Of a DNA stretch of 64,000 bases, positions 2,919-51,204 are shown piece by piece; position 1 is the stretch's first letter, and every line of letters starts with the position of its first letter. A model generated the notes under the pieces. It saw nothing but the letters and a program-made list of their open reading frames with translations, did no database searches and was not told where the DNA came from. A program made the position numbers and the translations under genes. This DNA is from Pectobacterium polonicum. GTDB taxonomy: Bacteria; Pseudomonadota; Gammaproteobacteria; Enterobacterales; Enterobacteriaceae. The stretch lies in assembly GCF_005497185.1 (NCBI RefSeq), contig NZ_RJTN01000007.1, positions 62,001 through 126,000 of the forward strand, read 5' to 3'.

Positions 2919-2927
2919 TCAGCCCAC

Positions 2928-33794: not shown

Positions 33795-33797
33795 TCT

Positions 33798-34541
33798 CTA
33801 CCGTTCAAACCACTTATCCGCCGAAAAAGCTCGCGTAGTGGACTCCGTTTCCTGCGCGGCTTTTTTCATGGTTTCGATATTCATCAGGTAATGATAGAGC
33901 GGCTCAAGCTGGGTAAATCCGCGAGCTAACACCGTCACCAGATCGCCGGAAAACAGTGCGTCCATATCCTGCCGGGTAGATATCGCGGCAAATGATTTAC
34001 GGTTATACCAGTTCGCCAGTTCCGGTTCCTGATCTTTAATCAGCGGGCGTTTGTAGCTGTCCCCTTCCAGAGTGAAGGTATTCCCCAGACAGCTCGCCAC
34101 CTCAAGGAACTGTGACGGATTACCACGCAGCGTCTGACGGAACAGATCCATCGTATTGCGCGTCGCGCTGTAATAGCCCAGCCCATAGCGCCAGGTATCC
34201 GGCGTGATTTCAAAGAAATACACCGGCGCATCCGTCCAATCTTTGCGGGTACGCTTGAAAGTGAGCCACATATGGCTGCGATAGCGTGATTTATCATGGG
34301 AAAAACGCGTATCGCGATGAATACGGGAGAGGGTCTTGCCGATGGCAGGGCGAGTTTCAAAGTGGTCGTCAATCTGCAACATGGTCAGGCTGAGCTCATC
34401 CACCAGCGTGCGAAAGGGGGCAACCAATTGCTCATCGTAAATGGATCGATGCTCGTCAAACCACGCTTTATCGTTGTTCTGCCGCACCTGCTGAAGAAAC
34501 GTCAAACCCGCTTGAGAAAAACCCGTGAACTGCGTTGCCAT
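33798..34541 (-). CDS. DUF2461 family protein
   Basis: 247-residue cytoplasmic protein of the DUF2461 (TIGR02453) family, whose role is not established. Visible family motifs: FLQQVRQNNDKAWFDEHR (15-32), the block TLSRIHRDTRFSHDKSRYRSHM and YFFEITPD. No signal peptide or membrane segment. The 3' end lies 3 bases from the stop of the LprI-like gene on the other strand; the upstream region is a 401-base gap. Confidence 0.85.
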   Translation of the reverse strand: MATQFTGFSQAGLTFLQQVRQNNDKAWFDEHRSIYDEQLVAPFRTLVDELSLTMLQIDDHFETRPAIGKTLSRIHRDTRFSHDKSRYRSHMWLTFKRTRKDWTDAPVYFFEITPDTWRYGLGYYSATRNTMDLFRQTLRGNPSQFLEVASCLGNTFTLEGDSYKRPLIKDQEPELANWYNRKSFAAISTRQDMDALFSGDLVTVLARGFTQLEPLYHYLMNIETMKKAAQETESTTRAFSADKWFER

Positions 34542-34942
34542 AGAGAAATGTCATCCCTGTTGCTGTCAGATGGCATAAAGATAACGCCGTCAGTAGCGAA
34601 ACGCCATCGTCAGCGGAAAGGTCACCTCATCGCCCAAACCCATATTCCTCTTAGTTTCCCAAAAAACATGAATGATTTTTACCGCTACCCTTTTTCTTCC
34701 TAACCAGCCCTGAAATCATCCATTTATATTCATAATCCCATGAGCAACAGCAGATAATATTACCTTCACGCCAGTATTTGTGGAAATCAAAGCATCGTAA
34801 TTTCTATATAAGAATTTACAGATAAATAGCTACAGGATTTTACTTAATTTAGAACATGCCTCTATAACTGATATGTTAGCATTATTGCGATTTAAGCCAG
34901 GTAATTATTAACAACAAAATCCTTTAATGAGGGAATTATATA
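34542..34942. other. Intergenic region, AT-rich
   Basis: No gene seen on either strand. It separates the divergent DUF2461 and lipoprotein genes and becomes strongly AT-rich toward 34942, where GAGGGAAT gives the ribosome site of the lipoprotein. Confidence 0.5.
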
Positions 34943-35836
34943 ATGAAGGAAGCATTAAAACTGGGGATAATGGGGTTCGTTGCACTGTCTGTTTCGGCCT
35001 GTGATAGTTTAGATCCGAGCAGTCAGAAAGGCGTATTTTATTACAGCAACCCGACTGCAAGTAATATTACCTTCAAGGTTGATGGACAAAGTTATGACAT
35101 TTTACCGAACCATAGCGACAAAATTAAACTTTCACCCGGTAAGCACCTATTAGAAAATAATAAAGGTGAGAGTTTTTCATTCATGGTTTTTGATAATAAC
35201 AACGGCGGAATTATCAACCCGAACAACCAGGTTTATTATACGCTATCCGAAGTTTATGCCGTTGAAGGAAAAGGAAAAGGGTTTAAGCCGACGACCTACG
35301 AGGTGATGATTAATGGTCATCAGATAGAAATGGCCGTCAGAAGCGCTAACGCGTCGGTCATTGATGCCAACATGTTTAAATGTACCTACCAATTAGGTGA
35401 AGCATTCCCTGATTCCATCACCACCCGTGATAAAACATCAAATGGTAACATCAAGTCTAAATGTTTTGATAAGCCAGAGCTCGTTCAATACATTGCAGAT
35501 GTCTATGGTGAAAATCTTGCCGCCGACGCTAGCGAAGATAAAAATAAAGATTCAGTCAACATGCAATTTAATTATGACCTCCCTGCTACCAGTGGTCTTC
35601 ATCCTAAAATCCAGGAATCAGCAGAAAAAATAGTCGACCTGTTAAAGACGTTGCAGACAACGGATGACAGCGATATTCATGAAAAACTGAACAAACAATA
35701 TTTTCAGCTGAGCACTGATTTCACCCAAGCCTATGTCAGTAACACATCTACTCATACTGCTGAACAGCATAAGCAACACGGCGATTTCGTTAAGCAATCA
35801 GGGTATTTGTTCAGCTACGGTATTTTAGCTAAATAG
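34943..35836 (+). CDS. Putative lipoprotein of unknown function
   Basis: 297 residues; family not recognised. The N-terminus is a lipoprotein signal, KEALKLGIMGFVALSVSAC, with the lipobox VSAC so that Cys20 would be lipidated; Asp21 follows, which in E. coli tends to keep lipoproteins in the inner membrane. The mature part starts with a small beta-rich region (FYYSNPTASNITFKVDGQSY, then ILPNHSDKIKLSPGKHLL), resembling domains that coat or display short repeats, then a central Cys pair (KCTYQ, SKCFD) and a helical C-terminus. Base composition is clearly more AT-rich than the flanking genes, a sign of possible transfer. Confidence 0.7.
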   Translation: MKEALKLGIMGFVALSVSACDSLDPSSQKGVFYYSNPTASNITFKVDGQSYDILPNHSDKIKLSPGKHLLENNKGESFSFMVFDNNNGGIINPNNQVYYTLSEVYAVEGKGKGFKPTTYEVMINGHQIEMAVRSANASVIDANMFKCTYQLGEAFPDSITTRDKTSNGNIKSKCFDKPELVQYIADVYGENLAADASEDKNKDSVNMQFNYDLPATSGLHPKIQESAEKIVDLLKTLQTTDDSDIHEKLNKQYFQLSTDFTQAYVSNTSTHTAEQHKQHGDFVKQSGYLFSYGILAK

Positions 35837-35881
35837 CGCTACCCGACATCATTCAAGATACGTGGCAACACGTTAGCCCGT

Positions 35882-35911
35882 CAGAGCGGCACTCGCCAGT
35901 GTGCTGCTCTG
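35882..35911. terminator. Hairpin between convergent lipoprotein and ABC ATPase genes
   Basis: Stem cagagcggcac/gtgctgctctg (882-892 with 901-911 of the 35 kb block; one G-T pair) and an 8-nt loop, placed between two converging genes. No long T-tract. Confidence 0.55.
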
Positions 35912-35926
35912 GCGTGTTCCCAACGG

Positions 35927-36670
35927 TTAAGCCTGATGCAGTGCCTGACTAACCGCTTGCCGTTGTTCCAATAACGCGGTGCTGGTTCGGTCGCGAGGAT
36001 AAGCCAGATTGACCGGCAGAATCGCACTAATCCGCCCCGGCCGGGGTGACATCACCACCACCCTATCGGCCAGAAAAACGGCTTCTTCCACGTCATGCGT
36101 CACCAGCAATATCGTTAAATCCGTTTGTCGGCGAATCTCCGCCAGACGCTCCTGCAACTGCTGTTTGGTCAGCGCATCAAGCGCGCCAAAAGGTTCATCC
36201 AGCAAGAGAATACGTGGCGTCGATACCAGCCCACGAGCGATCGCCACACGCTGCGCCATCCCGCCCGATAGCTGATGCGGCCACGCATCGGCAAAGCCTT
36301 CCAGCCCCATCATCTGAAGATAGTGTGTAATACGGTGCGCCGCGTCCGCAGCGGACAGGTTGAGGTTGAGCATGCCGAGGCGGATATTGTCCGTCACGGT
36401 GAGCCACGGAAACAGGCGCGGTTCCTGAAACACCAGGCTGACATCGTCGGGAATACCGCGCACAGACCGATCGCCAATCAGAATGCGCCCACGTTCAGTG
36501 GTATCAATCCCAGCCGCTAAGCGCAGCAGCGTCGATTTACCGCAGCCGCTGGCTCCGATGACCGCAACCAGTTCGCCCGCGTGCAGCGACAGATCGATGT
36601 CCTGTAACACCGTCAGCGGTGCGCCGTTGACGGTAAAATACTTGGTAATGTGCTGAAAATGCAGGGACAT
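35927..36670 (-). CDS. ABC importer ATPase (SsuB/TauB/NrtD-type)
   Basis: 247-residue ATP-binding subunit of a sulfonate/nitrate/taurine-type importer. Walker A GASGCGKST (39-47), signature LSGGMAQ (134-140), Walker B ILLLDEP (154-160), H-loop His192 in LVTHDVEEAV. ATG 36670 is chosen because GGAGA lies just upstream; a GTG at 36691 overlaps the permease stop. It lies 17 bases after the fused permease gene, and belongs to the transcript tonB-exbB-exbD-permease-ATPase. The matching binding protein is on the other side of the divergent region (40867). Confidence 0.9.
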   Translation of the reverse strand: MSLHFQHITKYFTVNGAPLTVLQDIDLSLHAGELVAVIGASGCGKSTLLRLAAGIDTTERGRILIGDRSVRGIPDDVSLVFQEPRLFPWLTVTDNIRLGMLNLNLSAADAAHRITHYLQMMGLEGFADAWPHQLSGGMAQRVAIARGLVSTPRILLLDEPFGALDALTKQQLQERLAEIRRQTDLTILLVTHDVEEAVFLADRVVVMSPRPGRISAILPVNLAYPRDRTSTALLEQRQAVSQALHQA

Positions 36671-36687
36671 AGATTCTCCGTTAACGG

Positions 36688-38295
36688 TCACGCAAAGCGC
36701 CAGCGGGTCAACCGCCGTTCAGATAAGGTCATCAAGCGGGAAAAGAGCGCGGCGACGATCGCAATCAGCACGACCCCGGCCATGATGCGATCGGATTCAA
36801 GCAGTTGCTGTGCGCGAATCATCATGCCGCCCAGCCCCTCTCCCGACGGCATGAAATACTCTGCGCCAATTGCTCCGGTCCACGCATGCATCAACGCCAG
36901 CCGTAAACCGGAAAAAAGTGGCGGTAATACGCTGGGAAACACCAGCGTGCGCAGCGCTTGCATGGGCGTAAGGCGCAAAACCTGAGCCACTTCCAACAGC
37001 GCAGGGGGAAGTTGGGCAATGCCCTGACGGGTTGCCAGCATCACGGGAAAGAACGCGGCCACGGCGATAAACACAATTTTGGCGCTCTCCCCTAAACCGA
37101 ACCAGGCCGTGATCAGCGGCAGCCAGGCGAATAGCGCCACACAGCGCAGTGCAGACAGTGCCGGATTAAACAGCCTGTCGGCGATACGCCAGCCGCCGAG
37201 CACCGCACCGACCAGCACGCCGACTCCGCTCCCCAGCAAAAAGCCCTGTAGCGCACGCAGCAGGCTGGCATTCAGGTCGGCCAACAGCCCTCCCTGAGCC
37301 AAACCCGACCACAGCGCATCAATCACACCGCTTGGTGCAGGAAGAAAAGCCACGTTCACCCACTCGCGCGTACTGCTAACCTGCCACAACGCAACCAGAG
37401 CCAATGGCGCGAGCCAAGGCGTCAGCGATAGACCCGGCAGCGCAGAGCTCAGGCTATCGCGACCCAGCACCAGCGCAGGCCAGTGAATCCAACGACGCTC
37501 CAGCTTCAGCAGCACGCGTTCCCCGGAAAATCCCAGTATCCCGATGATCAAAATGCAGACAAACACCAGATCTAGCATGAACAGTTGGCGGCTTTGTACC
37601 AGCAGGTAGCCCAGCCCTTCGCTGGATGCCAGTAACTCAACCGCAATCAACGCCACCCATCCGGTGGAAAACGCCAGCCGCACCCCCGTCATGACATACG
37701 GCGACATCGCGGGCAGAATCAGGTAACGCAGGAAAGCAACAGGCGGTAAACGCAGGCTACGTGCCATTTCATGCAACTTTTGTGGCGTCTGTTGAATACC
37801 GGCGCAGGTGTAAAGCGTCACCGGCACCGTCACTGATTTCACCAACACCACCAGTTTCAGCGCTTCACCAATCCCTAATGACAGCATCAAAAGCGGTATC
37901 CAGGCTAACGTCGGAATCTGTGCGATGACGGTGAAGAGTGGCATAAACAGCGCATTCAGGCGTCGATTCAGGCCGAACAAACTACCCAGTATCAGGCCCA
38001 GCGCGATGCCGCCGCTAAAACCAATCGCAAGCCGCATCAGACTAATAGGCAACTGGTGAATCAGTTCTTCGGGAATAAAATCCCGCGCGCTATCAATAAC
38101 CGCCAGCGGAGAAGGCAGTATCTGCTCAGACATCCATCCATGCCGACTGGCAAGCCACCAGCCAGCGAGAACCAGCAGCGGCACGACGAGCGACACAATC
38201 AATGAAATGACCAATGCGGAATACCCCGCCGACAGCGTAGCGATCAGCGAAGCATCAGAAGCGGAACGTATTCGCAGTGCGTATTTGGGCATCAT
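36688..38295 (-). CDS. ABC importer permease, two fused permease modules
   Basis: 535 residues, twice the usual size of an SsuC/TauC permease. Two homologous modules are visible: about 30-270 and 290-530. Each carries an EAA-type cytoplasmic loop for the ATPase, ARSLRLPPVAFLRYLILP (178-195) and AQVLRLTPMQALRTLVFP (437-454), and each ends with a similar motif (AVELLASSEGLGYLL, GAEYFMPSGEGLGGMM). The protein thus supplies both halves of the channel in one chain. It starts 21 bases after exbD. A second in-frame ATG follows at once (MM), so the start may be one codon later. Confidence 0.88.
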   Translation of the reverse strand: MMPKYALRIRSASDASLIATLSAGYSALVISLIVSLVVPLLVLAGWWLASRHGWMSEQILPSPLAVIDSARDFIPEELIHQLPISLMRLAIGFSGGIALGLILGSLFGLNRRLNALFMPLFTVIAQIPTLAWIPLLMLSLGIGEALKLVVLVKSVTVPVTLYTCAGIQQTPQKLHEMARSLRLPPVAFLRYLILPAMSPYVMTGVRLAFSTGWVALIAVELLASSEGLGYLLVQSRQLFMLDLVFVCILIIGILGFSGERVLLKLERRWIHWPALVLGRDSLSSALPGLSLTPWLAPLALVALWQVSSTREWVNVAFLPAPSGVIDALWSGLAQGGLLADLNASLLRALQGFLLGSGVGVLVGAVLGGWRIADRLFNPALSALRCVALFAWLPLITAWFGLGESAKIVFIAVAAFFPVMLATRQGIAQLPPALLEVAQVLRLTPMQALRTLVFPSVLPPLFSGLRLALMHAWTGAIGAEYFMPSGEGLGGMMIRAQQLLESDRIMAGVVLIAIVAALFSRLMTLSERRLTRWRFA

Positions 38296-38316
38296 GTTCG
38301 TCGATATCCGGCTAGG

Positions 38317-38718
38317 TTATTTTTGCGTCAGCAGAGATAAACGCGTAATCCCCGCCTGCTCGACATCAGCCAGCAGCGCCGCTACCGCGCCGTAATTGGC
38401 CTCTTTGTCCGCTTGTACCTGCACCACCAAATCGGTATTACCCGCTTTCGCCTGCTGCAAGCGCGGCACCAGTTGCTCGCGTGCCAGGTTCTCTTTATTG
38501 ATGAAGACGCGCTGCTCGGCATCAATACTAATAACAATCGGATCGGCACGATCGACCGGGGCTACTGCTGCCGTTTTCGGTAGCTGAATAGGAATGGCAT
38601 TGGTCAGCATCGGCGCAGTAACGATGAACACCACCAACAATACCAACATGACATCCACGAGCGGCGTGATATTCATTTCACTCATGACGTCGTCATCATT
38701 ACGCGAGGTAAATGCCAT
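38317..38718 (-). CDS. exbD: ExbD/TolR family proton-channel subunit
   Basis: 133-residue inner-membrane protein that, with ExbB, uses the proton gradient to power TonB. Short cytoplasmic N-terminus (MAFTSRNDDDVMSEMNITPL), one TM at about 20-38 containing the essential aspartate (Asp22 in LVDVMLVLLVVF), then a periplasmic domain ending in LADVEQAGITRLSLLTQK. It begins one base after the exbB stop. The name follows family membership; this is a locus-specific copy, probably distinct from the housekeeping exbD. Confidence 0.88.
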   Translation of the reverse strand: MAFTSRNDDDVMSEMNITPLVDVMLVLLVVFIVTAPMLTNAIPIQLPKTAAVAPVDRADPIVISIDAEQRVFINKENLAREQLVPRLQQAKAGNTDLVVQVQADKEANYGAVAALLADVEQAGITRLSLLTQK

Positions 38719-38719
38719 C

Positions 38720-39436
38720 TCACACCACCTCTCTCAGATTCTTTACGGAGAAAGCCGCAGAGGATGACTCTGTGCTGGCCTGAAACGTACCGACGTGAAA
38801 ATCGTTCGCCTGCATCACGCTGTAGACATCATGGGCGAAGTCATCCATATCCGCGACAGCCAGCTTGAGGCGGCGTAAAAAGTAGTTGTAGATCAGCACG
38901 GCAGGAACCGCGACCGCAATCCCGATTCCGGTGGCGATCAGCGCGTTGCCAATCGGCCCCGCAACCGTGTCGAGACTGGCAGAACCAGAGAGCCCAATCT
39001 CCTGCAACGCCGCCATAATGCCCCACACGGTGCCAAACAGGCCGATAAACGGCGATGTGCTGCCAATACTGGCCAACACCGCCAGCCCGCTTTCCAGCGA
39101 GCGGCGTTCACGCTGAATCTGCTGTTGCAGCGCGCGCTCAACCCGATCGGGAAGATGAATATTCAAAGCAAGCTGACCGCTAATCCGCTCCGGCGCTTTA
39201 ACGGCAGCCAGTGCCAGATTAGCCAGCGAACCGGGCTGTTTAGCGCTGGTTTCTAACGTTTGACTGACATCATCCTGCTGCCAGAAAGCCGCACGGAAAC
39301 GCCGATCGCGCCGTTGTGCCAGCCGGTATTGGACAAACTTCAACAACCCCAGCCCCCAGGTGACGAGAGAAAACAGCAGCAGCAGCAGAACCACGGCACC
39401 TTCTGCAGAAAAGAGTTCAATGTGTCCAAGCGTCAT
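38720..39436 (-). CDS. exbB: ExbB/TolQ/MotA family proton-channel subunit
   Basis: 238-residue inner-membrane protein with three TMs in the ExbB pattern: TM1 about 15-35, a large cytoplasmic loop, then TM2-TM3 with IGSTSPFIGLFGTVWGIM and the region AGPIGNALIATGIGIAVAVPAVLIYN carrying the conserved threonine. ATG 39436 has TGAGG 8 bases upstream and is preferred to a TTG two codons earlier. Gap to tonB is 10 bases. Confidence 0.88.
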   Translation of the reverse strand: MTLGHIELFSAEGAVVLLLLLFSLVTWGLGLLKFVQYRLAQRRDRRFRAAFWQQDDVSQTLETSAKQPGSLANLALAAVKAPERISGQLALNIHLPDRVERALQQQIQRERRSLESGLAVLASIGSTSPFIGLFGTVWGIMAALQEIGLSGSASLDTVAGPIGNALIATGIGIAVAVPAVLIYNYFLRRLKLAVADMDDFAHDVYSVMQANDFHVGTFQASTESSSAAFSVKNLREVV

Positions 39437-39446
39437 AACCAATACC

Positions 39447-40295
39447 TCATGAATTCAACGAAAAATCGACAGGAACCACTACCCAGCCGCTAACTGGCTG
39501 ATTGCCGCGCCGTGCCGGAACGAAAGACCAGCGCACCACCGTGTCTCTGGCAGCCTCGTCCAGTGACGGGTAGCCGCTTGATTGATGAATACGAATGGTT
39601 TGCACCTTGCCGTCGGCGCGTACCTGCACATTTAGCAGCACCGTGCCTTCATAACCGCGGCTAATCGCCACGTCGGGATAAGACGGCGAAGGGTTATGCA
39701 GGTAGTCAGCATTGGCCAGCGGCGGCGTTAACGGCGCGTCGACAGGCTGTACCGGCGCAGGCGTTGTTGGAGCAACTGTCGATGCGGTTTCCGTCTGGGG
39801 TTGCGGCGTCGGTTTAGGCGCGGGAGCGCTCTTTTTCACCGGTGTCTTTTTCGGTACAGGTTCAGGTTTTTTCTCCGGCACTTTTTTTTCCGGTGCAGGA
39901 GGCAGTAATGCACTTTCATCCACGAGCGGCTCGGTTATCGTTGGCTCTTCTAGCGGTTGTGGCGTCGGTGTCTCAGGTTCGGCAACCGGAACGACCTCTT
40001 GCACCACAGGTTCTGTTACCGTAGAAACCAGTTCAACGCTGACAGGCTGCGGCCGAGCAGGCACCGTAACGGGCGGTGTCGACGCGCTGTTGAATAACGC
40101 CAGCACTGCCGCATGCAATAGCAACGTCGCTACCACGGCCAGCCAGCGCTCCGGCCGGGATGACACCGTCGTATTTAGCTGCGGTAAACGCAACTGCACC
40201 GCACCGCTCACCCGCTGCGTGTTAGCCTGCGGCGTTGGCTCCGGTGAATAGGATCGGGATATCGGCGCGGCTCCCGCATAGAGTAATTCCGTCAT
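39447..40295 (-). CDS. tonB: TonB energy transducer
   Basis: 282-residue TonB protein. A short cytoplasmic stretch is followed by a TM at about 50-69 with the functional histidine (His61 in ATLLLHAAVLAL), then a long Pro/Glu/Lys-rich periplasmic linker with repeats such as PEKKVPEKKPEPVPKK, and the C-terminal TonB domain from about residue 195 (SPSYPDVAISRGYEGTVLL, VRADGKVQTI, SSGYPSLDEAA). Ribosome site AGGAG 9 bases upstream. First gene of an operon that continues through exbB, exbD and an ABC importer, unlike the stand-alone housekeeping tonB. Confidence 0.92.
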   Translation of the reverse strand: MTELLYAGAAPISRSYSPEPTPQANTQRVSGAVQLRLPQLNTTVSSRPERWLAVVATLLLHAAVLALFNSASTPPVTVPARPQPVSVELVSTVTEPVVQEVVPVAEPETPTPQPLEEPTITEPLVDESALLPPAPEKKVPEKKPEPVPKKTPVKKSAPAPKPTPQPQTETASTVAPTTPAPVQPVDAPLTPPLANADYLHNPSPSYPDVAISRGYEGTVLLNVQVRADGKVQTIRIHQSSGYPSLDEAARDTVVRWSFVPARRGNQPVSGWVVVPVDFSLNS

Positions 40296-40866
<571 letters not shown>

Positions 40867-41874
40867 ATGACGACATCAGGACGAAAATGGTTAGTGACCA
40901 GCATATTGGCAATGGGTATGGCCTGGTCAGGCATCACCTCCGCAATCACTGAAATTCGTATTGCCGCACCAGACATTGGCGCGGGTACAAAACCCAGCGG
41001 CGGTGGCCTGCTCGATGTCATCCACAGTCAGAAACTGCTGGAGCGCGAGTTTAGCAAAGATGGGATCAGTGTGCGCTGGACGTTCATCAAAGGCGCTGGC
41101 CCCGTCATTAATGAAGCATTTGGCAACCATCAGGTCGATGTAGCCTATCTGGGCGATTTAGCCAGCATTATCGGCCGTTCGCGCGGTCTGGATACCCGAG
41201 TGATCGCCGTAGCGTCACGCGGCATCAATCACTATCTGGCCGTGGCAAAAGGCTCTGGTATTGAGAAAATTGCCGACCTAAAAGGAAAACGCATCGGGAT
41301 CTTTCGTGGAACAGCAGGGGAACTTTCCTTCGTCAGCGCGCTTGATTCGCAAGGCCTGAAACCGTCTGACGTTAAGCTGATTAATCTCGATTTTGCCGCC
41401 GCCAGTGCGGCGTTAGCGGCCGGGCAGATCGATGCCACCTGGGGCGGTAGCAATACGCTATCATTGCGGGATAAAGGGCTGGCAGATATTCCACTCTCCA
41501 GCCGCGACCTGAACGGAGCGGGCCAGCTCAGCGGCTTCCTGTTGGTGGATGAGAAATTCGCCAAAGGCAACGAAGATATTCTTCGCCGCTTAGTCAAGGT
41601 TCAGCGGGAAGCGGCAAACTGGGCTAGCGACAATAAAAACAAGGATGAATTTATTCAGCTATTAGCGACCCAGTCAGGCTACCCGGAAAATATATTACGC
41701 GTCGAGTGGGATACATTACCGCCATTAACTGAGCGTCTTTCGCCAGAATTGGATACCGCTTTCGTGGAAAAATTAAAACGTGCCGTCACATTGGCCGATG
41801 AATCGCGTCTTATTCGGCAACCGTTTGATGTCGATAAATGGCTGGATGATTCTTATCTAAAAGCAACACAGTAA
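40867..41874 (+). CDS. ABC importer periplasmic substrate-binding protein (SsuA/NMT1-type)
   Basis: 335-residue exported binding protein. ATG 40867 opens a signal peptide (TTSGRKWLVTSILAMGMAWS, cut near TSA/IT); the open frame upstream runs into repeat copy 2 and is not expected to be coding. The mature protein has the SsuA/TauA-like fold signs: EIRIAAPDIGAG, then GAGPVINEAFGNHQVDVAYLG, HYLAVAKGSGI, DLKGKRIGIFRGTAGE and INLDFAAASAALAAGQIDATWGG. It should deliver ligand to the permease and ATPase coded on the other strand (35927-38295). Ligand class in the family is sulfonates, nitrate, thiamine precursor or aromatic acids; not assignable here. Confidence 0.88.
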   Translation: MTTSGRKWLVTSILAMGMAWSGITSAITEIRIAAPDIGAGTKPSGGGLLDVIHSQKLLEREFSKDGISVRWTFIKGAGPVINEAFGNHQVDVAYLGDLASIIGRSRGLDTRVIAVASRGINHYLAVAKGSGIEKIADLKGKRIGIFRGTAGELSFVSALDSQGLKPSDVKLINLDFAAASAALAAGQIDATWGGSNTLSLRDKGLADIPLSSRDLNGAGQLSGFLLVDEKFAKGNEDILRRLVKVQREAANWASDNKNKDEFIQLLATQSGYPENILRVEWDTLPPLTERLSPELDTAFVEKLKRAVTLADESRLIRQPFDVDKWLDDSYLKATQ

Positions 41875-41901
41875 TTTACCCCCCCAAATTATAACTCGTG
41901 T

Positions 41902-41924
41902 ATTGCCGTGACATTCACGGCAAT
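41902..41924 (+). other. Hairpin between binding-protein and receptor genes
   Basis: Perfect 10-bp stem attgccgtga/tcacggcaat, 3-nt loop, without a T-tract. It may trim or attenuate the transcript between the abundant binding protein and the receptor. Confidence 0.55.
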
Positions 41925-41956
41925 CGGCAGCCTATTGACTCAATTCGGAAAACGCT

Positions 41957-44227
41957 ATGTATTTAAAAAAACACCAACAGTATTTAAAAAAACACCAGCG
42001 CAGCATAACGTCAGGCATTGTAATGAGCTGCGTCTTAACGCTCCCCGCTATGGCGCGAGCTGCCGACCCGCAGATCGCAACGGATAATGCGCCCCGCACG
42101 GAAGCCACAACCGCCGCCCCCGTCCAACTGAAACGTGTGAAAGTTAACGCCCAGCGCGCGCCTGTTCAGCCGCCGACCACGCTGGCATCGGTGATCGACG
42201 GCAAAACGCTCGAAGAAGAACGGCTCTACCGCTTTGAGGAATTGTCACAGCTGGTGACGGGTCTGGATGTCGATACCGTAGATGTGATGGATACGACCGT
42301 AACCATTCGTGGGATTGGCGATGGTGGCGAGAGCGGCACCAACATCGGTATGCCGGGCAGCGTGGGGCTGTTTGTCGATGGCGTCTACTTATCCCGCCCC
42401 GGTGTCATCTCTAACGATTTGCTGGATATCGACAGCACCCGCGTGCTGAAAGGTGCACAGGGCGCCGCTTATGGCTTTAATACTACCGGCGGCGCGATTG
42501 ATATTCGCACCCGCAAACCCACCTTCACACCCGAATATTCACTGGAGCAATCGTTCGGACAACGCGGCTACCTGCAATCCAAACTGATGGCTTCCGGGCC
42601 ACTCAGCGACCATTGGGCAGGCCGTATCAACCTGTCCCGTACCGAACGCGGCGGAAACGTCACGAATATCGAAAACGGCCATAAGCTCGGAGGCAGCACC
42701 AATAACGGCGTGCGCGGCCAGTTGCTGTATCAGCCCAATGACAGTTTTAGCCTCAGAATCACCGGCGACTACAGCGATTCTACTCAGCGCCCCGTTTCGG
42801 TTCTGGTGAGCGCAACCGACGCCTTTCGCACTCGCGCCGAACAAACTGGCCTCAAGGTCGTGGGCGGTCGTCAGGTCGCCATGGATGACGAGAACGTCAT
42901 TCGTGTTGCGCAAGGCGGCGGCTCGGTCGAGGCCAACTGGAAACTGAAGAGTGGATTTAGCCTGAATTCTCTCTCCTCATTGCGCTATTTCCGCGTCTTG
43001 CCCAGCACAGCGGATAACTGGAACATTCCGCTCTATAGCGACAGCGGCGCTGACGTGCGCGATCGCGTCTGGTCGCAAAGTTTTTGGCTGGATTCACCCA
43101 AAGGCAATAAGGTCGATTACTCACTCGGCGTCGATTACTGGGGAGAGAACCTCGATACCGAGGCAAACAGTCGCTACTACAACGACAATCGCGTACGGAC
43201 ATGGGTAGGCAATGGCTATCAGGGCATTAACGTTCAGCGCTTTGGTACGTTAGATGACACCGTTTATTCCGTCTATGGCCGCGGAACCTGGCACGCCGCC
43301 GATAAGCTGGATGTCATTGTCGGCCTGCGCCAGACCTACGAGAAAAAAGAGGGAACGTTTGTTCGCAGGAACCGCGCAACCTTTGATTCTGGCCCGCTCT
43401 CGCAAACCAACCGCCTGCCTTCTGGCTCCGTCAGCCTAAACTGGTTCGCGGCACCGAACGTCACCCCTTACCTCACGCTGGGCTACGGGGAGAAATCCGG
43501 CGGCCTGAACGTGTCATCTGGGGCGGCAAGGCAACTGGGGATCGACTCGCTGTACGTCGATCCAGAGAAAACTCGCTCGGCGGAGCTGGGGGTTAAAACT
43601 CACTGGCTACAGCGCAAAGTGGAATGGAATACCGCGCTGTTCTGGAGCGTTGTCGAAGATTTCCAGAATAACGCCTATGACGAAGAAACGGATACCAGCT
43701 ACCTGATTAATGCCGGGAAATTCCGCTCACGTGGCGGGGAATCTCAGTTGACGCTGCGCCCGCTTGATGGCCTGAGCATCAGTCTGGCCGGTACGCTGTT
43801 GGATGCCAGTTATCTGAACTTCCCTAACGCCCGCTGCCCGGCAGAAATTTCCGCCGTCTCGTGCGATATGTCAGGAAAACGCGTCTTCAAATCCCCCACG
43901 TTGAGCTACAACACGCGCGTGCGTTATCAGTGGGATACGCCAAACAATCTGCAAGCCTCAGTTTCCGGGCAATGGTCATGGCGGAGCTGGGCCTATGGCA
44001 CGCTCGATGATTCCGAGAGCAACCGTATTCCGGCTTATGGCGTGCTAAACCTGTCTAGCGGGCTGAGCGGCAAGCAAGGCGACAACCGTTGGAACGTGTC
44101 GCTGTGGGTGAAAAATGCGCTGGATAAGAACTACTACCGCTCTGTCAGAGGCTCTAGCGCCACAACGGGCGTGATTGGCGAACCGCGCATGGTCGGCATC
44201 TCCGTGGGCTACGACTTCAAGGGCTAA
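41957..44227 (+). CDS. TonB-dependent outer-membrane receptor
   Basis: 756-residue receptor that should bring a specific ligand through the outer membrane with TonB energy. The signal peptide ends at MARA/ADPQ (near 36) after an unusually long basic start that contains a 7-residue tandem duplication (YLKKHQQ YLKKHQR). A TonB-box-like stretch, RVKVNAQ, follows near 60. The plug spans about 75-190 (TLEEERLYRFEELSQL, VTIRGIGDGG, GLFVDGVYLSRPG, RVLKGAQGAAYGFNTTGGAI). The rest is a 22-strand-type barrel ending in GEPRMVGISVGYDFKG with a C-terminal aromatic near the end. Gene order with the binding protein, the lyase and the dedicated TonB points to one uptake pathway. Confidence 0.92.
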   Translation: MYLKKHQQYLKKHQRSITSGIVMSCVLTLPAMARAADPQIATDNAPRTEATTAAPVQLKRVKVNAQRAPVQPPTTLASVIDGKTLEEERLYRFEELSQLVTGLDVDTVDVMDTTVTIRGIGDGGESGTNIGMPGSVGLFVDGVYLSRPGVISNDLLDIDSTRVLKGAQGAAYGFNTTGGAIDIRTRKPTFTPEYSLEQSFGQRGYLQSKLMASGPLSDHWAGRINLSRTERGGNVTNIENGHKLGGSTNNGVRGQLLYQPNDSFSLRITGDYSDSTQRPVSVLVSATDAFRTRAEQTGLKVVGGRQVAMDDENVIRVAQGGGSVEANWKLKSGFSLNSLSSLRYFRVLPSTADNWNIPLYSDSGADVRDRVWSQSFWLDSPKGNKVDYSLGVDYWGENLDTEANSRYYNDNRVRTWVGNGYQGINVQRFGTLDDTVYSVYGRGTWHAADKLDVIVGLRQTYEKKEGTFVRRNRATFDSGPLSQTNRLPSGSVSLNWFAAPNVTPYLTLGYGEKSGGLNVSSGAARQLGIDSLYVDPEKTRSAELGVKTHWLQRKVEWNTALFWSVVEDFQNNAYDEETDTSYLINAGKFRSRGGESQLTLRPLDGLSISLAGTLLDASYLNFPNARCPAEISAVSCDMSGKRVFKSPTLSYNTRVRYQWDTPNNLQASVSGQWSWRSWAYGTLDDSESNRIPAYGVLNLSSGLSGKQGDNRWNVSLWVKNALDKNYYRSVRGSSATTGVIGEPRMVGISVGYDFKG

Positions 44228-44231
44228 TGTC

Positions 44232-47003
44232 ATGAGTAAGAGGACGTATTCACGCCGACGCTTCCTGCGTGACAGTACCTTGCTGGCGCTGTCGGCACCG
44301 TTCTGGAGCTCTGCCGCTGTGCCTTTGGCAGCGGCTTCCAACCGCGCTGGCAAAGACACACCGCAGGTCAGCCTGCGCTGGCTGGACGGGCAGATCCCCC
44401 GTTCGTTTACGGGCGTCTCCTGGGGCGCTCCCTGGCCGCAGGGGGCGGTACGCAGCGACAGTGGTTTCCAGTTGCATGATGCGCAACAACGAACTTATGA
44501 CCTGCAAAGCTGGCCGCTGGCTCGCTGGCCAGACGGTTCGATTAAATGGTCGGCGCATGCGCTGGGCGGCGATACCGCGCCGGAAGACGGCCTGACGCTG
44601 CGGCCGATTCCCGTTAAGGACATACCGGCGGGGTCAGAGATGGTTAGCGAGCACGCGCGCGGCTGGACAATCGATACCGGCCATATTCGCTGCGTCATTC
44701 CACGTTCAGGCTCTCGCTTGATCGAAGAAATCTGGCGGGATAATCGGCTGGCGTTAACCAATGGCAGGCTGGTGCTGCGTATGCAGCGTGGGACGGAAAC
44801 GGACAGCACGCTGACGCAGGACGCGTATCAGGGTGAGATCGACACGGTCACCGTAGAGCAAAGCGGGCCGCAGCGCACGGTGATTGCGCTGCGCGGTACG
44901 CACCATGCGCAACAGCCGGGGGTTAAGCGCATCCCCTTTATTATTCGGCTGTATAGCTATGCAAATACCGATTCGCTGCGCGTGGTACATACCCTTGTCT
45001 ATGACAACGGCGACGATCAACTTAGCCTAAAAGGGCTTGGGCTGGCGTTCGATGTGCCGCTACAGGGGGAACTGCACGATCGCCATGTACGCTTCGTTTC
45101 CGATCAAGGTGGACTTTTTCGTGAAGCGGTACGCGGTCTGAGCGGATTACGCCGCGATCCCGGTGCAGCCGTTATCGCGGCGCAGCTCGCCGGAAAAGCA
45201 ACACCGCCGATCGCCGATTTTTCACCGGAGGTTGGCAAACGTCTGGATTACATTCCCGCGTTTGGCAGCTACCGCCTGACCCAACACCATCCCGACGGTT
45301 TTCAGATCCATAAACGCACCGAGGCCGGACGGGGCTGGCTGCTTTCCGCCACGGGCGAACGGGCAGCAGGCGTCGGCTATCTGGGTACGCCAACCGGCGG
45401 CGTAGCGTTCGGCCTGCGTAATTTCTGGCAGAGCTACCCCGCCAGTCTGGAAATCAACAATGCCCACACCGACGTGGCAACCGTCACACTCTGGCTATGG
45501 TCACCGTGGGCAGAACCGATGGATATGCGCTTTTATCATGACGGTTTGGGTCAGGATACCCATGACAAACAGCGTGAAGGGTTAGCAATCACGTATGAAG
45601 ATTACGAACCGGGCTTCGGCTCGGCGGTCGGCGTGGCACGCACCAGCGAACTGTTTATCGATGTGCTGCCCGCGACGCCCGATGCGGAAAATCTGGTGAC
45701 GCGAGCACGGCGTATGCAGCAACCGCCGCTGCTGGTAGCGAACTCACCGGATTTGTACCGCGCACAGGCATTTGGATCGATGTGGGCGCCCGCCTCCGCA
45801 GCCACACCAGCCCGAACCCGGTTAGAGAAGCAGTTGGGCGCGTATTTCGATGCCTACCAGCAGGAGGTCGAGCAGCGCAAATGGTACGGCTTCTGGGATT
45901 TCGGCGACGTCATGCATACCTATGACAGCGACCGTCACGTCTGGCGCTACGATGTGGGTGGCTATGCGTGGGATAACTCGGAGTTGAGTACCGATCTGTG
46001 GCTCTGGTATTACTTCCTGCACAGCGGGCGCGCCGACGTGTTTCGTATGGCGGAAGCCATGACGCGCCACACCGGTGAAGTTGACGTGCACCATTTGGGG
46101 CAATTTAGCCCACTGGGGTCACGGCACAATGTTCGCCATTGGGGCGACAGCGCCAAACAGTTGCGTATTTCTACCGTCGCTAACCGACGTTTTCTCTACT
46201 ACCTCACCGCCGATGAGCGCATCGGTGAACTGATGGATGAGCAGGTTGAAGCACTGCGCACGCTAAACGCGGTGCTGCCCGGCCGCAAAATCGGCCAGAC
46301 ACATCCTGCCAGTCCAAATCATATCAGCCTGGGTTTCGGCACCGACTGGGGGGCCGTCTCCGCAGCCTGGCTCACGGCCTGGGAACGCTACGGCGATCCA
46401 GCAATGCGTGAACGGTTGCTCAACAGCATGCAAACGCTAGCCGCCCAGCCACACGGCTTTTTCACCGGCAGCGCCGCCATCGACCCCGACACTGGCAGAT
46501 TCCTCCCCGCACCTGAGGATCAGGTAGAGATTTCGCATTTGAGCGCGGTATTTGGTCTGACAGAAATCTGTAGCGAGCTGGTTGAGGTACTGCCCGATCC
46601 GGCCTTTACGCGCGCGTGGCTCGACTACTGTCAGTTCTATAACGACCCCGTTACGTTAAGCGCACGGGTCGGCAAGACGGTGAAGAAACTTAATTTAGCG
46701 CAAGGCCATGCACGGCTGACCGCTTTTGCCGCGCGGCAACTGAATGATCCCACGTTGGCACAGCGTGCCTGGGCAGAATTTAACGCAGGCAGCGGCGGCA
46801 TTGCTAACCCAACGCTCACGCAGCGACGCCTGACACCGCCTGACGTGCTCTACCCCATCAACGAACCGGTGATCAATTCCACCATTGATAAACATTCCGG
46901 TAGTACCGCGGCAACCAATCTGGCGACCAACGCCGTCGCTCAATGGGGATTAACCGCCATCGCCCTGCTGGCCTTGCTGGATGACATCCCCGCTTCTTCT
47001 TAA
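44232..47003 (+). CDS. Tat-exported protein of the exo-rhamnogalacturonan lyase (PL26/YetA)-like family
   Basis: 923 residues. ATG 44232, 4 bases after the receptor stop, opens a twin-arginine signal, YSRRRFLRDSTLLALSAPFW, so the folded protein should be exported by Tat to the periplasm. The mature N-terminus reads LRWLDGQIPRSFTGVSWGAP and then SWPLARWPDGSIKWSAHAL, the start pattern I recall for the YetA/PcRGLX group of exo-rhamnogalacturonan lyases. Further conserved-looking blocks are FWDFGDVMHTYD, WDNSELSTDLWLWYY, HHLGQFSPLGSRHNVRHWG and GTDWGAVSAAWL, rich in His, Asp and Trp, as expected of an (alpha/alpha) catalytic barrel. The function is inferred from family resemblance only. Confidence 0.75.
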   Translation: MSKRTYSRRRFLRDSTLLALSAPFWSSAAVPLAAASNRAGKDTPQVSLRWLDGQIPRSFTGVSWGAPWPQGAVRSDSGFQLHDAQQRTYDLQSWPLARWPDGSIKWSAHALGGDTAPEDGLTLRPIPVKDIPAGSEMVSEHARGWTIDTGHIRCVIPRSGSRLIEEIWRDNRLALTNGRLVLRMQRGTETDSTLTQDAYQGEIDTVTVEQSGPQRTVIALRGTHHAQQPGVKRIPFIIRLYSYANTDSLRVVHTLVYDNGDDQLSLKGLGLAFDVPLQGELHDRHVRFVSDQGGLFREAVRGLSGLRRDPGAAVIAAQLAGKATPPIADFSPEVGKRLDYIPAFGSYRLTQHHPDGFQIHKRTEAGRGWLLSATGERAAGVGYLGTPTGGVAFGLRNFWQSYPASLEINNAHTDVATVTLWLWSPWAEPMDMRFYHDGLGQDTHDKQREGLAITYEDYEPGFGSAVGVARTSELFIDVLPATPDAENLVTRARRMQQPPLLVANSPDLYRAQAFGSMWAPASAATPARTRLEKQLGAYFDAYQQEVEQRKWYGFWDFGDVMHTYDSDRHVWRYDVGGYAWDNSELSTDLWLWYYFLHSGRADVFRMAEAMTRHTGEVDVHHLGQFSPLGSRHNVRHWGDSAKQLRISTVANRRFLYYLTADERIGELMDEQVEALRTLNAVLPGRKIGQTHPASPNHISLGFGTDWGAVSAAWLTAWERYGDPAMRERLLNSMQTLAAQPHGFFTGSAAIDPDTGRFLPAPEDQVEISHLSAVFGLTEICSELVEVLPDPAFTRAWLDYCQFYNDPVTLSARVGKTVKKLNLAQGHARLTAFAARQLNDPTLAQRAWAEFNAGSGGIANPTLTQRRLTPPDVLYPINEPVINSTIDKHSGSTAATNLATNAVAQWGLTAIALLALLDDIPASS

Positions 47004-47021
47004 TGCCGCCATCCGGCGGCA
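47004..47021 (+). other. Intercistronic hairpin before the DUF6250-like gene
   Basis: Stem tgccgcc/ggcggca with loop atcc, starting at the lyase stop codon and ending 17 bases before the next ATG. Could protect or delay the downstream message. Confidence 0.55.
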
Positions 47022-47038
47022 CGTTACAGGACATCACC

Positions 47039-47731
47039 ATGATTGACCCTAGCTGTACTGAAAACACGCTCCTCCTGTCGCCACAGACAAGCGACACACG
47101 TAACATTATCGATTCCCCCCACCGTGCGGCGCTTATCTGGTCCACCGATTCAGACGGTCAGCCGCTACGCTGGCAGGTGGAGCAAGAAGACCCTGACCGC
47201 ACCACGATCCAGACCACGCCTGAGCGCCTGACGCTGGAGAGCGCGGCCGGGCTGACGATCTGGCTGGATGCGCCGCTCTCAGGCACCTATCGCATCGCCT
47301 TTACGCGGGAGCTTTTGGTCACGGATCGCCCTCACGACCGCGTGTCCGACCTCAATCAGTTCTGGGCCGCGCGCGATCTGCATAATCCGAACCTGTTTAC
47401 CCGGCACGGCAAGCTCAACGAATACGACAGCCTGAATCTGTACTATGTCGGCATGGGCGGCAACTGGAACAGCACCACGCGCTTTCGTTACTACGACGGT
47501 CACGGCGAGCGCCTGCTACTGGGTGAATACACCGATGCCACGCATCTGCTGCGCCCTCATCATCGCTATCGTATCGTGATTGAAGTGGATCGGCGGGAAA
47601 CGCGTTTTTGGGTTGATGACGTGCTCTATTTCCGCGCCAGCTACCCGAACACGCCCGCTCCGGGCTATTTCGGCTTTCGGACGGTATTTTCACGTCAGGA
47701 AATCAGCGAGTTCAGCATTACCCCGCTGTAA
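47039..47731 (+). CDS. DUF6250-like protein (concanavalin-type beta-sandwich expected)
   Basis: 230 residues from ATG 47039, which has AGGA 7 bases upstream; an ATG overlapping the lyase stop (TAATG, 47003) is also in frame but lacks a ribosome site. No signal peptide is seen. Family-like pieces: YRIAFTRELLVTD, SDLNQFWAARDLHNPN, YYVGMGGNWNSTTRFRYYDG, HRYRIVIEVDRRETRFWVDD, APGYFGFRTVFSRQEIS, which resemble DUF6250 domains attached to carbohydrate-active proteins. It directly follows the lyase-like gene and its 3' end overlaps the LysR gene by 14 bases. If it is cytoplasmic it may handle the imported product; an undetected export route is the alternative. Confidence 0.7.
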   Translation: MIDPSCTENTLLLSPQTSDTRNIIDSPHRAALIWSTDSDGQPLRWQVEQEDPDRTTIQTTPERLTLESAAGLTIWLDAPLSGTYRIAFTRELLVTDRPHDRVSDLNQFWAARDLHNPNLFTRHGKLNEYDSLNLYYVGMGGNWNSTTRFRYYDGHGERLLLGEYTDATHLLRPHHRYRIVIEVDRRETRFWVDDVLYFRASYPNTPAPGYFGFRTVFSRQEISEFSITPL

Positions 47732-48647
47732 GCGACACAGGCACACCGTGCAGGTCGCCATCGACCTGCACGAAGGTGTCGATCAGCTTACGCGCCAGCA
47801 GGGACAGGCGGGCGTCCGCCAGATAAATGATGCCGTAATGGGTATAGAATTCGTCGGTGTTATCGTCCAGACCCGCAACCTTCAACATATGCAGGCCGTA
47901 CCGTTCGGGCTCATTGAAATGATTGGTCGTGCCGATGGCATCTGAATGGCGTACCACATCTAGCAGACTGTAGCCATTTTCACACTCAATGCTGGTGCGA
48001 ATATCCAGTTTACCGCTCAGTTGCACCAGCGCACGGTGCAGGTTGGGCGGGCGGATCGTTGCCGCCAGCGGGTAGGAGAAGAATTGCTCGACGGTAATCG
48101 CTTCCTGTGCCGCCAGCGGGTGCCCGCTGCGGCAGCAAAAACCCCAGCGATGCTGGCTCAACGGCTGTACCCGATAGCGGGTATCAAATTCAAAGTTACG
48201 CATATCCGCCACAATGAAATCCAGTTCTTCGGCCATGAGCCGATGGCCCAGCGCCTGCCAGTTATCAACGCGAAAGACCATCCGCACCTTGGGATACAGC
48301 CGGGAGAACGCTCCGATCACCTGCGGCATCAGCCAGGCGGCGGGAGCAGGGCCGCAGCCAAAATTCACTTCGCCCGCCTCTTTCTCATTGAACTGCTGGA
48401 TATCGTTAAACAGATCGTGCGTCTGATTAATCAGGCGACGCGCGTGTTCCAGCACCACCAGCCCTTTCGGCGTCGGCTCCAGTTGGTTCATGCGATCGAT
48501 TAAACGCGTGCCAATGGTCTGTTCCAGAGACTGGATGCTACGGCTGAAAGCGGATTGGGATAGCTTCATCGCCTGTGCCGCCGACGTAAAATTGCGATGC
48601 TCAATCAGGGCAATAAAGTGACGCAGTTGGCGAAGATCGATATTCAT
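47718..48647 (-). CDS. LysR-family regulator, probable controller of the uptake locus
   Basis: LysR regulator, 309 residues from ATG 48647 (MNIDLRQLRHFIALIEH); an in-frame ATG five codons upstream cannot be excluded. Helix-turn-helix: RNFTSAAQAMKLSQSAFSRS (23-42 from the upstream start), then LEQTIGTRLIDR. The effector domain has FGCGPAPAAWLMPQVIGAF and other typical blocks. Convergent with the DUF6250-like gene, overlapping it by 14 bases. Position at the end of the locus suggests it senses the imported compound; no divergent target lies next to it. Confidence 0.85.
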   Translation of the reverse strand: MNIDLRQLRHFIALIEHRNFTSAAQAMKLSQSAFSRSIQSLEQTIGTRLIDRMNQLEPTPKGLVVLEHARRLINQTHDLFNDIQQFNEKEAGEVNFGCGPAPAAWLMPQVIGAFSRLYPKVRMVFRVDNWQALGHRLMAEELDFIVADMRNFEFDTRYRVQPLSQHRWGFCCRSGHPLAAQEAITVEQFFSYPLAATIRPPNLHRALVQLSGKLDIRTSIECENGYSLLDVVRHSDAIGTTNHFNEPERYGLHMLKVAGLDDNTDEFYTHYGIIYLADARLSLLARKLIDTFVQVDGDLHGVPVSLTAG

Positions 48648-48662
48648 AGCGCGGCGAGTCAT

Positions 48663-49050
48663 CAGGACGGAAGGAATTTTCAGGCTAACAGGTCTGGCCG
48701 TACAGAAAAAATAATAAAACCGATGTTTATATTCTTACCGGTTATATATGCAGCGCGGTCTCTTATACGCCAATCCAGAGGCATCGCGAGTTTTGCCGTT
48801 ATCCGGCGTAAAAAATTATGCTGAGGAGATAGCGGGCTTAGGATGAGCCGCAGGGACGCGGCTCAAGCTTGCGCCACGTAGGGAACGTGTCGCAAGCGGT
48901 CCGTTAAGCCAGATACCGACGAAGGCACCGCGTAGCGGCATAATTCGCGCCAAAAGCCAAGGGGTCACGGGGCGAGCGGCGCTTAAGCCGCCCCGTGTCG
49001 GGCGCGTGCTACGAGGTAGCATGAAAATAACGACATTACCGCGCACGAAA
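48663..49050. other. Intergenic region with GC-rich repeat
   Basis: No real gene seen. The left part (48663-48815) is AT-rich and is the LysR promoter side. The right part is the repeat at 48822-49046. Confidence 0.5.
48822..49046 (-). repeat. GC-rich palindromic repeat element with a pseudo-coding frame
   Basis: About 220 bp built of many inverted repeats (for example gccgcag/gcggct, ggcgcaag/cttgcgcc, cggggcg/cgccccg, gctac/gtagc). On the minus strand it gives an open frame of 76 codons with Arg/Pro-rich sequence (PRSTRPTRGGLSAARP, GALFVGIWLNGP-type pattern) that I think recurs in soft-rot genomes and is better viewed as a repeat than a gene. Confidence 0.6.
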
Positions 49051-49087
49051 CCGTCTCAGCGTCCGCATAAAATGGACTAAGAGACGG
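49051..49087 (-). terminator. Terminator hairpin of pfkA
   Basis: Outer stem ccgtctc/gagacgg with an inner gtcc/ggac pairing, 13 bases past the pfkA stop and followed on the minus strand by TTTCG. Weak T-tract. Confidence 0.6.
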
Positions 49088-49100
49088 AGGATCAGATTTC

Positions 49101-50063
49101 TTAGAACAGCTTTTTCGCTGTCTCCAGCCAGTCGCCTTTGAACGGACGCTTCATGTTCTCGATAGCATCAACGATATCGTGATGCACCATTTTCTCATTC
49201 TGGATACCGACACAGCGGCCGCCGTAGCCCTGCTGTAGCAGTTCAATAGAATACGCGCCCATGCGAGAAGCCAGAATGCGGTCATACGCAACCGGAGAAC
49301 CACCGCGCTGAATGTGGCCAAGTACGGTGGCACGGGTTTCGCGACCCGTTTCTTTTTCAATGTATTTCGCCAGTTCATCGACGTCACACACCAGCTCGGT
49401 AATCGCCACAATCGCGTGCTTTTTGCCTTTCTCGATGCCCGCTTTGATTTCGCAAACCAGATCTTCCGGGCTAAACGGCACTTCAGGCAGGACAATGAAT
49501 TCACAGCCGCCGGCAATCGCTGCCGCCAGTGTCAGGTCACCGCAGTGGCGTCCCATGACTTCGACAATGGAAATACGTTGGTGAGAAGAAGAGGTGTCGC
49601 GCAGGCGGTCAATCGCTTCCAGCACGGTTTCCAGCGCGGTAAAGTAACCAATGGTGTAGTCCGTTCCCGCTACGTCGTTATCAATCGTGCCGGGCAAGCC
49701 GATACAGGGAAAACCCATTTCCGTCAGACGCTTGGCTCCCATGTAGGAACCGTCACCGCCGATAACGACCAGCGCATCCAGACCACGTCTTTTCATGTTT
49801 TCCACACACACCTGACGCACTGCTTCGTCACGGAACTGCGGGAAACGTGCTGAACCGAGGAACGTACCGCCACGGTTAATCACATCCGATACGCTGTAGC
49901 GATCCAACTGCTCCATGCGATCTTCGTACAAGCCCTGATAGCCATCATAAATGCCGTAGATTTCCAGCCCTTCCGACAGTGCAGCACGAACCACACCCCG
50001 GATTGCCGCATTCATACCTGGTGCATCGCCACCGCTCGTCAACACTCCGATTCTTCTAATCAT
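49101..50063 (-). CDS. pfkA: 6-phosphofructokinase I
   Basis: ATP-dependent phosphofructokinase, the main committed step of glycolysis. 320 residues, as in E. coli. ATP site [14 protein letters not shown] (6-19), GGDGSYMGA (102-110), substrate and catalytic TIDND (126-130, Asp128 as base), and the effector-site region in [11 protein letters not shown]. Beside fieF as in E. coli, with a 207-base gap that holds its promoter. Confidence 0.97.
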
Positions 50064-50270
50064 GACAACCTCTGGACTTGTAGATGTAATTTTGCAGGAT
50101 TCTTCTATCGTAAATTCACCGCCGCTGTTACGCAGGCAGCAACGCCTTGTTCTTTTATTAGCATATTATAACAAACACCCGAAGCTGAATTGATTCAGGT
50201 CAGGCTACATTGTGCATAAATTTTCATGGCCTATCACGTTTTTAACACTAAATGCTGAAAATACCGTCGC

Positions 50271-51176
50271 CTACATCGCCAACCTGCCACGCTGGTTTTC
50301 CGGCACGGCGGAAACCGGGTCCTGATGGATCATAATGTCGGCCCCCGGAAACTGTTTGCGTAACGCCTGCTCCAGATCGTCCGCAATCTGGTGTGCCTCA
50401 ACCAGCGGCAGGGCGTCATCCATTTCCAGATGTAGCTGAATAAAGCGCGTTGGCCCGGAACGTCGGGTGCGCAATGCATGTGCGCCACGAATACCCGGCC
50501 AGTTCACAATCACCTCAGCAATAGCACGATGTTCGTCCTCCGGCAGCGCGCGATCCAGCAGCGACTGCACCGCGTCATATCCCATACGTAACGCGCTATA
50601 TAAAATATAGCCGCCAATCCCCAACGCAAACAGGGAATCGGCACGCGTCACGCCCTTCCAACTGAGTGCCAATGCCAGCAGAATCGCACCGTTCATCAGC
50701 AAATCGGACTGATAATGCAGCATGTCCGCCCGCACCGCCTGACTATGCGTACGTTTAACCACCCAGCGCTGGAACGAGACCAGCAGCAGCGTAGCCAACA
50801 GTGCAATGAGCGTCACCCACATGCCGACTTCCGGCGCGTGCAACACCTGCGGCTCCAGAGAATGTTGCAGCCCCGTCAGGATCAGGAACAGCGCCGAACC
50901 GGAAATAAACATGCTCTGCGCCAGCGCAGCCAGCGATTCGGCCTTGCCGTGGCCGAACGCGTGCTCGGAATCCGCTGGCTGCAACGAATAGCGCACGACT
51001 AGCAGGTTCACCAGCGATGCGGCGATATCCACCAGCGAATCGACCAGCGACGCCAGCAGGCTCACCGAACCGGTATGCCACCAGGCGAACACTTTCATCA
51101 CAAACAGCACCAGCGCCACGGCCGTCGCGCTCACCGCCGCCAGCGTCACCAAACGTGCATAGTGTGGATTCATCAT
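50271..51176 (-). CDS. fieF: Ferrous-iron/zinc efflux pump FieF
   Basis: Cation-diffusion-facilitator family exporter of Fe2+ and Zn2+ driven by proton exchange. 301 residues (300 in E. coli) with six TMs. Metal site A residues are in [13 protein letters not shown] and [13 protein letters not shown]; the [12 protein letters not shown] loop and the C-terminal cytoplasmic domain ([28 protein letters not shown]) are typical. The start is MM, so it may be one codon shorter. The cpxP gene that adjoins fieF in E. coli is not here. Confidence 0.95.
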
Positions 51177-51204
51177 GCCCTCACAGAAGGTCTGCTGCCC
51201 GAAT

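Follow-up and report, generated by a model that had tools for sequence, protein, structure and literature searches.

We analysed a window of 64,000 nucleotides from Pectobacterium polonicum (contig NZ_RJTN01000007.1, positions 62,001 to 126,000) and found that ten genes filling positions 35927-48662 of this window form a real, conserved unit, nine of them in two divergent runs and the tenth, for LysR, convergent with the second. An earlier note on this DNA had counted nine genes and ended the locus at 48647, thereby missing the first 15 bases of the LysR gene. On balance we hold it probable, with limited confidence, that the block is a dedicated uptake line for capturing and trimming rhamnogalacturonan I (RG-I) oligosaccharides, with a repurposed sulfate-ester importer taking in an acidic product. 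RG lyases encoded elsewhere would produce RG-I oligosaccharides outside the cell, and a TonB-dependent receptor driven by its own TonB-ExbB-ExbD would move them to the periplasm. There an exo-lyase of polysaccharide lyase family 26 (PL26), exported by twin-arginine translocation (Tat) and aided by a lectin-like DUF6250 protein, would trim them by beta-elimination. The small anionic product would pass to a binding protein and a fused-permease ATP-binding cassette (ABC) importer, retuned from a sulfate-ester lineage, and a LysR, probably of the SftR lineage, would govern the divergent operons. If the importer does carry an RG-I product, a sulfonate/sulfate-ester transporter lineage has gained a sugar-acid substrate, and naming these loci after their families misannotates them.

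PL26 is encoded in 21 of the 25 genomes of the genus Pectobacterium, the window's own included, and the 20 other PL26-bearing genomes all carry the ten genes in the order of the window (several of them are the same records as loci L011-L017 and L040). The same set and order were found in Enterobacter sp. 10-1 (L018) and in genome G087 (L091), from another genus of the family. Frames were broken in two of the 20: in L204 the permease is split into three and PL26 into two, and in L193 the LysR gene is split into two. L204 and L040 are both Pectobacterium sp. PL152, and the broken frames may reflect sequencing error or decay. Of 149 genomes drawn from the family, one per genus, two carried PL26, one of them the window's own; thus the ten-gene set is rare outside Pectobacterium. 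The dN/dS ratio (nonsynonymous to synonymous substitution rates) was 0.015-0.20 in 60 comparisons (10 genes in 6 Pectobacterium genomes), and all ten genes look constrained.

The single unit proposed in the earlier note is borne out by these counts. The note had held that homologues lying mostly in separate places would speak against it; within Pectobacterium they lie together, but elsewhere they mostly occur as two separate halves. The halves being apart in other genera is what would be expected if two unrelated modules were simply neighbours here. We consider such a coincidence very improbable, given the one gene order in 21 of 21 genus genomes and two further genera, and given that the binding-protein gene lies upstream of the genes for receptor, PL26 and DUF6250 on the same strand. 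Permease, receptor and lyase are moreover missing together from G822, a genus member without PL26, in which no match to the block receptor and only another permease type were found at the thresholds used.

The enzyme that had been described as lyase-like is a PL26 protein (44229..47003, plus strand). It matches all three PcRGLX domains (PF19501, PF21345 and PF21346) over their curated cut-offs with a best E of 1.7e-171, and its residues 47-907 match the solved PcRGLX chains in the PDB (E 2.4e-221). In the stretch compared, chain 5xqo carries Phe for the Tyr found in the ITYED motif of the other chains. Because this position was mutated in that structure, the aligned Tyr456, which is Tyr in 82 of 82 rows, is probably catalytic. 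The N-terminus reads SRRRFLRD, a Tat-type motif. We infer RG-I as the substrate of the lyase; PcRGLX is named as an exo-RG lyase of PL26 in a title within a reference list.

In 15 of the 80 named PL26 loci surveyed, a strong homologue of the block receptor lies beside PL26. The receptor (41957..44227, plus strand) was placed by Pfam and tree in a PL26-linked branch of putatively SftP-type receptors. The lyases of these 15 loci, together with those of the window and L091, form one clade of 17 (support 100) against 65 other rows (FastTree). The receptors likewise form one clade (12 rows, 100/100), nested on a long stem among sulfatase- and TauD-linked receptors. The L036 receptor, split over two frames, was excluded from the receptor trees, and the distant receptors L022_17275 and L097_13944 were dropped from a second one. 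Both the receptor and the lyase tree separate betaproteobacteria from enterobacteria. We concluded that receptor and lyase have been co-inherited across beta- and gammaproteobacteria.

Eight receptor-PL26 loci lie outside Pectobacterium, and five of them have a PL4 or PL9-like neighbour. A PL4 RG lyase was identified by Pfam in L034 and in L091, in the latter of which KdgM adjoins it, and by similarity to the L034 PL4 in L036 and L037; in L024 a PL9-like beta-helix protein is encoded near PL26. None of these three types (PL4, PL9-like, KdgM) was found in 12 of 12 ats-type loci. Six of the eight are betaproteobacterial loci of Paraburkholderia, Duganella and Uliginosibacterium (L034, L036, L037, L020, L022 and L024). 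They share the receptor clade and the PL26 clade with the block, and DUF6250 is near or fused to PL26; they differ in that no fused AtsB-type permease was found and in that four of the six have PL4 or PL9-like neighbours. Supported by neighbours and trees, receptor, PL26 and DUF6250 look like the RG-I half of the system. In L037 (Paraburkholderia sp. BCC1886), PL26, receptor, DUF6250 and PL4 lie near tonB-exbB-exbD and a NitT/TauT-type importer, TauD and a luciferase-like monooxygenase. The two halves may here have come together a second time and separately, or the arrangement may be due to chance; its sulfur genes beside PL26 were not weighed as strong support, since L034 and L036 have none.

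The DUF6250 protein (47003..47731, plus strand; DUF6250, E 3.2e-60) is predicted to be a lectin-like sandwich. A model from a single sequence was discarded (predicted local distance difference test, pLDDT, of 34.7), and the one used was built from an alignment of 29 rows. It folds like YesU and CBM66, the closest solved fold being 1oq1, which is YesU (PMC6120924), with 18% identity over 175 aligned residues. An export signal is missing in 11 of 11 enterobacterial rows, and the window's protein has none; in betaproteobacterial loci DUF6250 has a signal peptide or is fused to PL26, the fusion being found in two Duganella loci. The lack of an own export signal suggests co-export with the Tat-type lyase, and DUF6250 probably leaves the cell through Tat bound to PL26. 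It would then be a case of a signal-less, glycan-active partner exported with a Tat enzyme. No paper with the term DUF6250 was found in the open-access literature.

The importer half is of another kinship. The ABC transporter ATPase (35927..36691, minus strand; ABC_tran, E 1.8e-32) is AtsC-like by neighbourhood, and its top NCBIfam matches are to SaoA, SsuB and NtrCD types, each under the curated cut-off. The fused double permease (36688..38295, minus strand; two BPD_transp_1 stretches) is AtsB-like, with homologues that adjoin sulfur-ester enzymes. The periplasmic binding protein (40867..41874, plus strand; NMT1, E 1.9e-21) is of AtsR/SsuA type by its tree placement, the closest solved chain being 3uif (E 7.6e-38). 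The LysR-type regulator (47718..48662, minus strand; Pfam) is SftR-like by tree and neighbourhood. These four proteins resemble those of the ats/sft sulfate-ester cluster, and the pairing of a sugar lyase with a sulfonate/nitrate-type importer, to which the earlier note had drawn attention, was confirmed.

We looked for the fused permease in 369 genomes of the class and 398 of the phylum and probed its surroundings for sulfur enzymes with four queries: a sulfatase (from L098), an arylsulfotransferase (L097), and a TauD and a luciferase-like monooxygenase (both L037). At least one sulfur-enzyme gene was found in 11 of 11 fused-permease loci without PL26 (sulfatase in L098, L113, L114, L115 and L117; arylsulfotransferase in L097, L119, L120 and L121; TauD-like in L116 and L118), loci that are far from independent because two of them supplied queries and their genomes belong to only three families. 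Two loci have an unfused permease; sulfur-enzyme genes were found in L122 and none in L099. Among the 71 PL26 loci that do not belong to the ten-gene set, the four queries matched 3, namely L082, L089 and L037, the last of which had supplied queries. In L089 (Novosphingobium sp. PhB165), TauD-like and sulfatase genes at 1398-4426 lie about 6 kb from PL26.

In the binding-protein tree, sulfatase- and TauD-linked rows surround a single clade (100/100) made up of the window's protein and six partners, and the block LysR groups with the receptor-adjacent LysRs of G775 and G798 (84/86). By these trees, whose rows do not include P. putida SftR or SftP, the LysR and the receptor probably belong to the SftR and SftP lineages, the receptor on a long branch of its own. 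With sulfatase, binding protein, ATPase, permease, exbD, exbB, tonB and receptor, L098 is the locus without PL26 that is closest to the block in gene content. A second ats-type locus lies on contig C70 of the window's own genome (L097), with an arylsulfotransferase bearing a thioredoxin-like end, ATPase, fused permease, binding protein and LysR.

At the binding site, G78 and G96 of the window protein align with Gly68 and Gly86 of Xanthomonas citri SsuA, and A150 with Ser141; SsuA Gln36 falls outside the alignment. In X. citri SsuA, Gly68 and Gly86 are described as binding sulfonate via the backbone (PMC3839906). All three residues of the window recur in seven AtsR-type rows. These seven rows share 147 invariant columns; the seven PL26-linked rows all keep the residue in 92 of these columns and agree on a different one in 15, with A100S, Q152E and L197T among the changes. 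The anion site looks kept and its surroundings more polar, which fits an acidic sugar or a sulfated sugar. For both later routes, acidic-sugar and sulfur, the window's own genome has candidates: three GH88-family matches, one TauD, and one luciferase-like monooxygenase adjoining a binding protein.

This kinship is the ground of the main rival explanation, sulfur scavenging, which we think unlikely. The ligand would be a pectic glycoconjugate bearing sulfate or sulfonate, which PL26 and DUF6250 would cleave within the periplasm. Its sulfur-bearing piece would then be imported by the AtsRBC-type system under the SftR-like regulator, and enzymes encoded elsewhere would release the sulfur. It draws on the contrast between 11 of 11 and 3 of 71 loci given above, on the nesting of binding protein and receptors among rows linked to sulfur enzymes, on the LysR grouping, and on the TauD and monooxygenase genes of the own genome. 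Against it, none of the nine named ten-gene loci yielded a sulfur-releasing gene with the four queries, the six betaproteobacterial loci have the receptor-lyase pair without this importer, and no literature on sulfated pectic RG was found in the open-access literature with the terms used. A Pfam scan likewise found no AtsA-type arylsulfatase or AtsK-type dioxygenase among the ten window genes. More speculatively, and in our view improbably, land plants could hold a sulfate- or sulfonate-bearing rhamnogalacturonan-type glycoconjugate harvested by soft-rot bacteria. The Tat-co-exported lyase and its lectin-like partner would free an anionic, sulfur-bearing sugar piece for the AtsRBC-type importer, merging pectin breakdown and sulfur scavenging. 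Carriage of such a sulfated piece would point to an unrecognised plant glycoconjugate.

Several observations weigh against RG-I uptake through this importer. We know of no sugar carrier in the importer family, and every fused-permease relative without PL26 adjoins sulfur enzymes. In the midpoint-rooted permease tree the PL26-linked rows sit beside the ats-type set, not inside it, and the nesting of the receptors depends on a long-branched outgroup. No sugar-processing gene lies within the block. PL4, PL9-like and KdgM genes were absent from the Pectobacterium loci scanned, in the surrounding DNA examined, and with the queries used none was found near L018, L020 and L022. The last three loci would also suit a different glycan with 4-linked uronate, for example a glucuronate-capped arabinogalactan or a glucuronide, if this PL26 branch had changed its substrate; to our knowledge the activity of PL26 in this branch has not been assayed. 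We regard such a change as distinctly improbable in view of the PL4, KdgM or PL9-like neighbours in five of the eight loci outside Pectobacterium and of the conserved PcRGLX residues.

RG-I uptake has partial counterparts among known systems. In Xanthomonas-type TonB-dependent carbohydrate utilisation loci, receptor, degrading enzyme, inner-membrane transporter and regulator occur together, as in the block; the block differs by its sulfate-ester-type importer and private TonB-ExbB-ExbD. The rhamnogalacturonan genes yes/yet of Bacillus subtilis (tabulated in PMC2885750) belong to a Gram-positive organism and include a sugar-type ABC importer, unlike the block. Their likeness lies in a B. subtilis match to PcRGLX_3rd and in YesU as the nearest fold to the DUF6250 model. 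The earlier note knew of no described system with exactly this set; LysR, binding protein, permease, ATPase and TonB-dependent receptor nevertheless correspond to the non-enzyme genes of the published atsACBR-sftR-atsK-sftP cluster of Pseudomonas sp. UW4 (PMC3596284), to which L114 is also similar. Binding protein, fused permease and ATPase share their lineages with that cluster, and LysR and receptor probably do so too. The block differs in having no arylsulfatase or AtsK-like gene and in the addition of PL26, DUF6250 and tonB-exbB-exbD, the last of which is also added in the ats-type locus L098, without PL26.

An account of the combined ten-gene system was not found in the open-access literature. 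PMC4079955 does tabulate genes named sftP, atsR, ExbB, ExbD and astB, from Dickeya dadantii 3937 and P. carotovorum WPP14, among predicted host-interaction factors; its main text never uses the word sulfur. From its feature numbers ABF-0019115 to 0019125 we guess that D. dadantii 3937 has PL26 and DUF6250 as well. For P. versatile, PMC7843439 discusses an SftR-annotated LysR together with an operator in an atsR-atsBCA gap; we tentatively take this to refer to the other, arylsulfotransferase-type locus. PMC10580964 calls the partner genes of a TonB-dependent receptor iron-type, and these may or may not correspond to the ten-gene block.

The minus-strand run is completed by ExbD (38317..38718; ExbD, E 2.3e-30), ExbB (38720..39442; MotA_ExbB, E 3e-34) and TonB (39447..40295; TonB_C, E 6.3e-23). 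ATPase and permease genes overlap by 4 bases, and gaps of 21, 1 and 4 bases separate permease from exbD, exbD from exbB and exbB from tonB. In the other run, 82 bases lie between binding-protein and receptor genes and 1 base between receptor and PL26, PL26 and DUF6250 overlap by 1 base, and DUF6250 and LysR overlap convergently by 14. The block ExbB is an extra copy, the genome having five MotA/TolQ/ExbB matches. ExbB trees, including a second one with two junk rows and five near-duplicates dropped, had little support and an approximately unbiased (AU) test (p 0.154) decided nothing, so no conclusion was built on them. A Pfam scan found no SusD-type family among the ten block proteins at E 0.001.

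The divergent promoter gap of 571 bases between tonB and the binding-protein gene (40296..40866) contains invariant blocks in an alignment of 10 Pectobacterium loci. One of them, of 23 bases, has a single occurrence genome-wide even when as many as 3 mismatches are allowed, so that no regulon could be derived from it. Promoter-like sites (8 against 12.8 in shuffles) and terminator-like sites (15 against 23.9) were fewer than in shuffled sequence, and Rfam gave no match at gathering scores in 33000-52000. A repeat of about 128 bases (40708..40835), presumably ERIC-like (enterobacterial repetitive intergenic consensus), lies just upstream of the binding-protein gene and has 48 other matching stretches genome-wide. 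In P. aroidearum (L013) a similar repeat was seen by eye at another spot of the same gap, the alignment having ended before the window's copy. On the ATPase side the block is flanked by a gene for a 297-residue protein without Pfam match (34943-35836).
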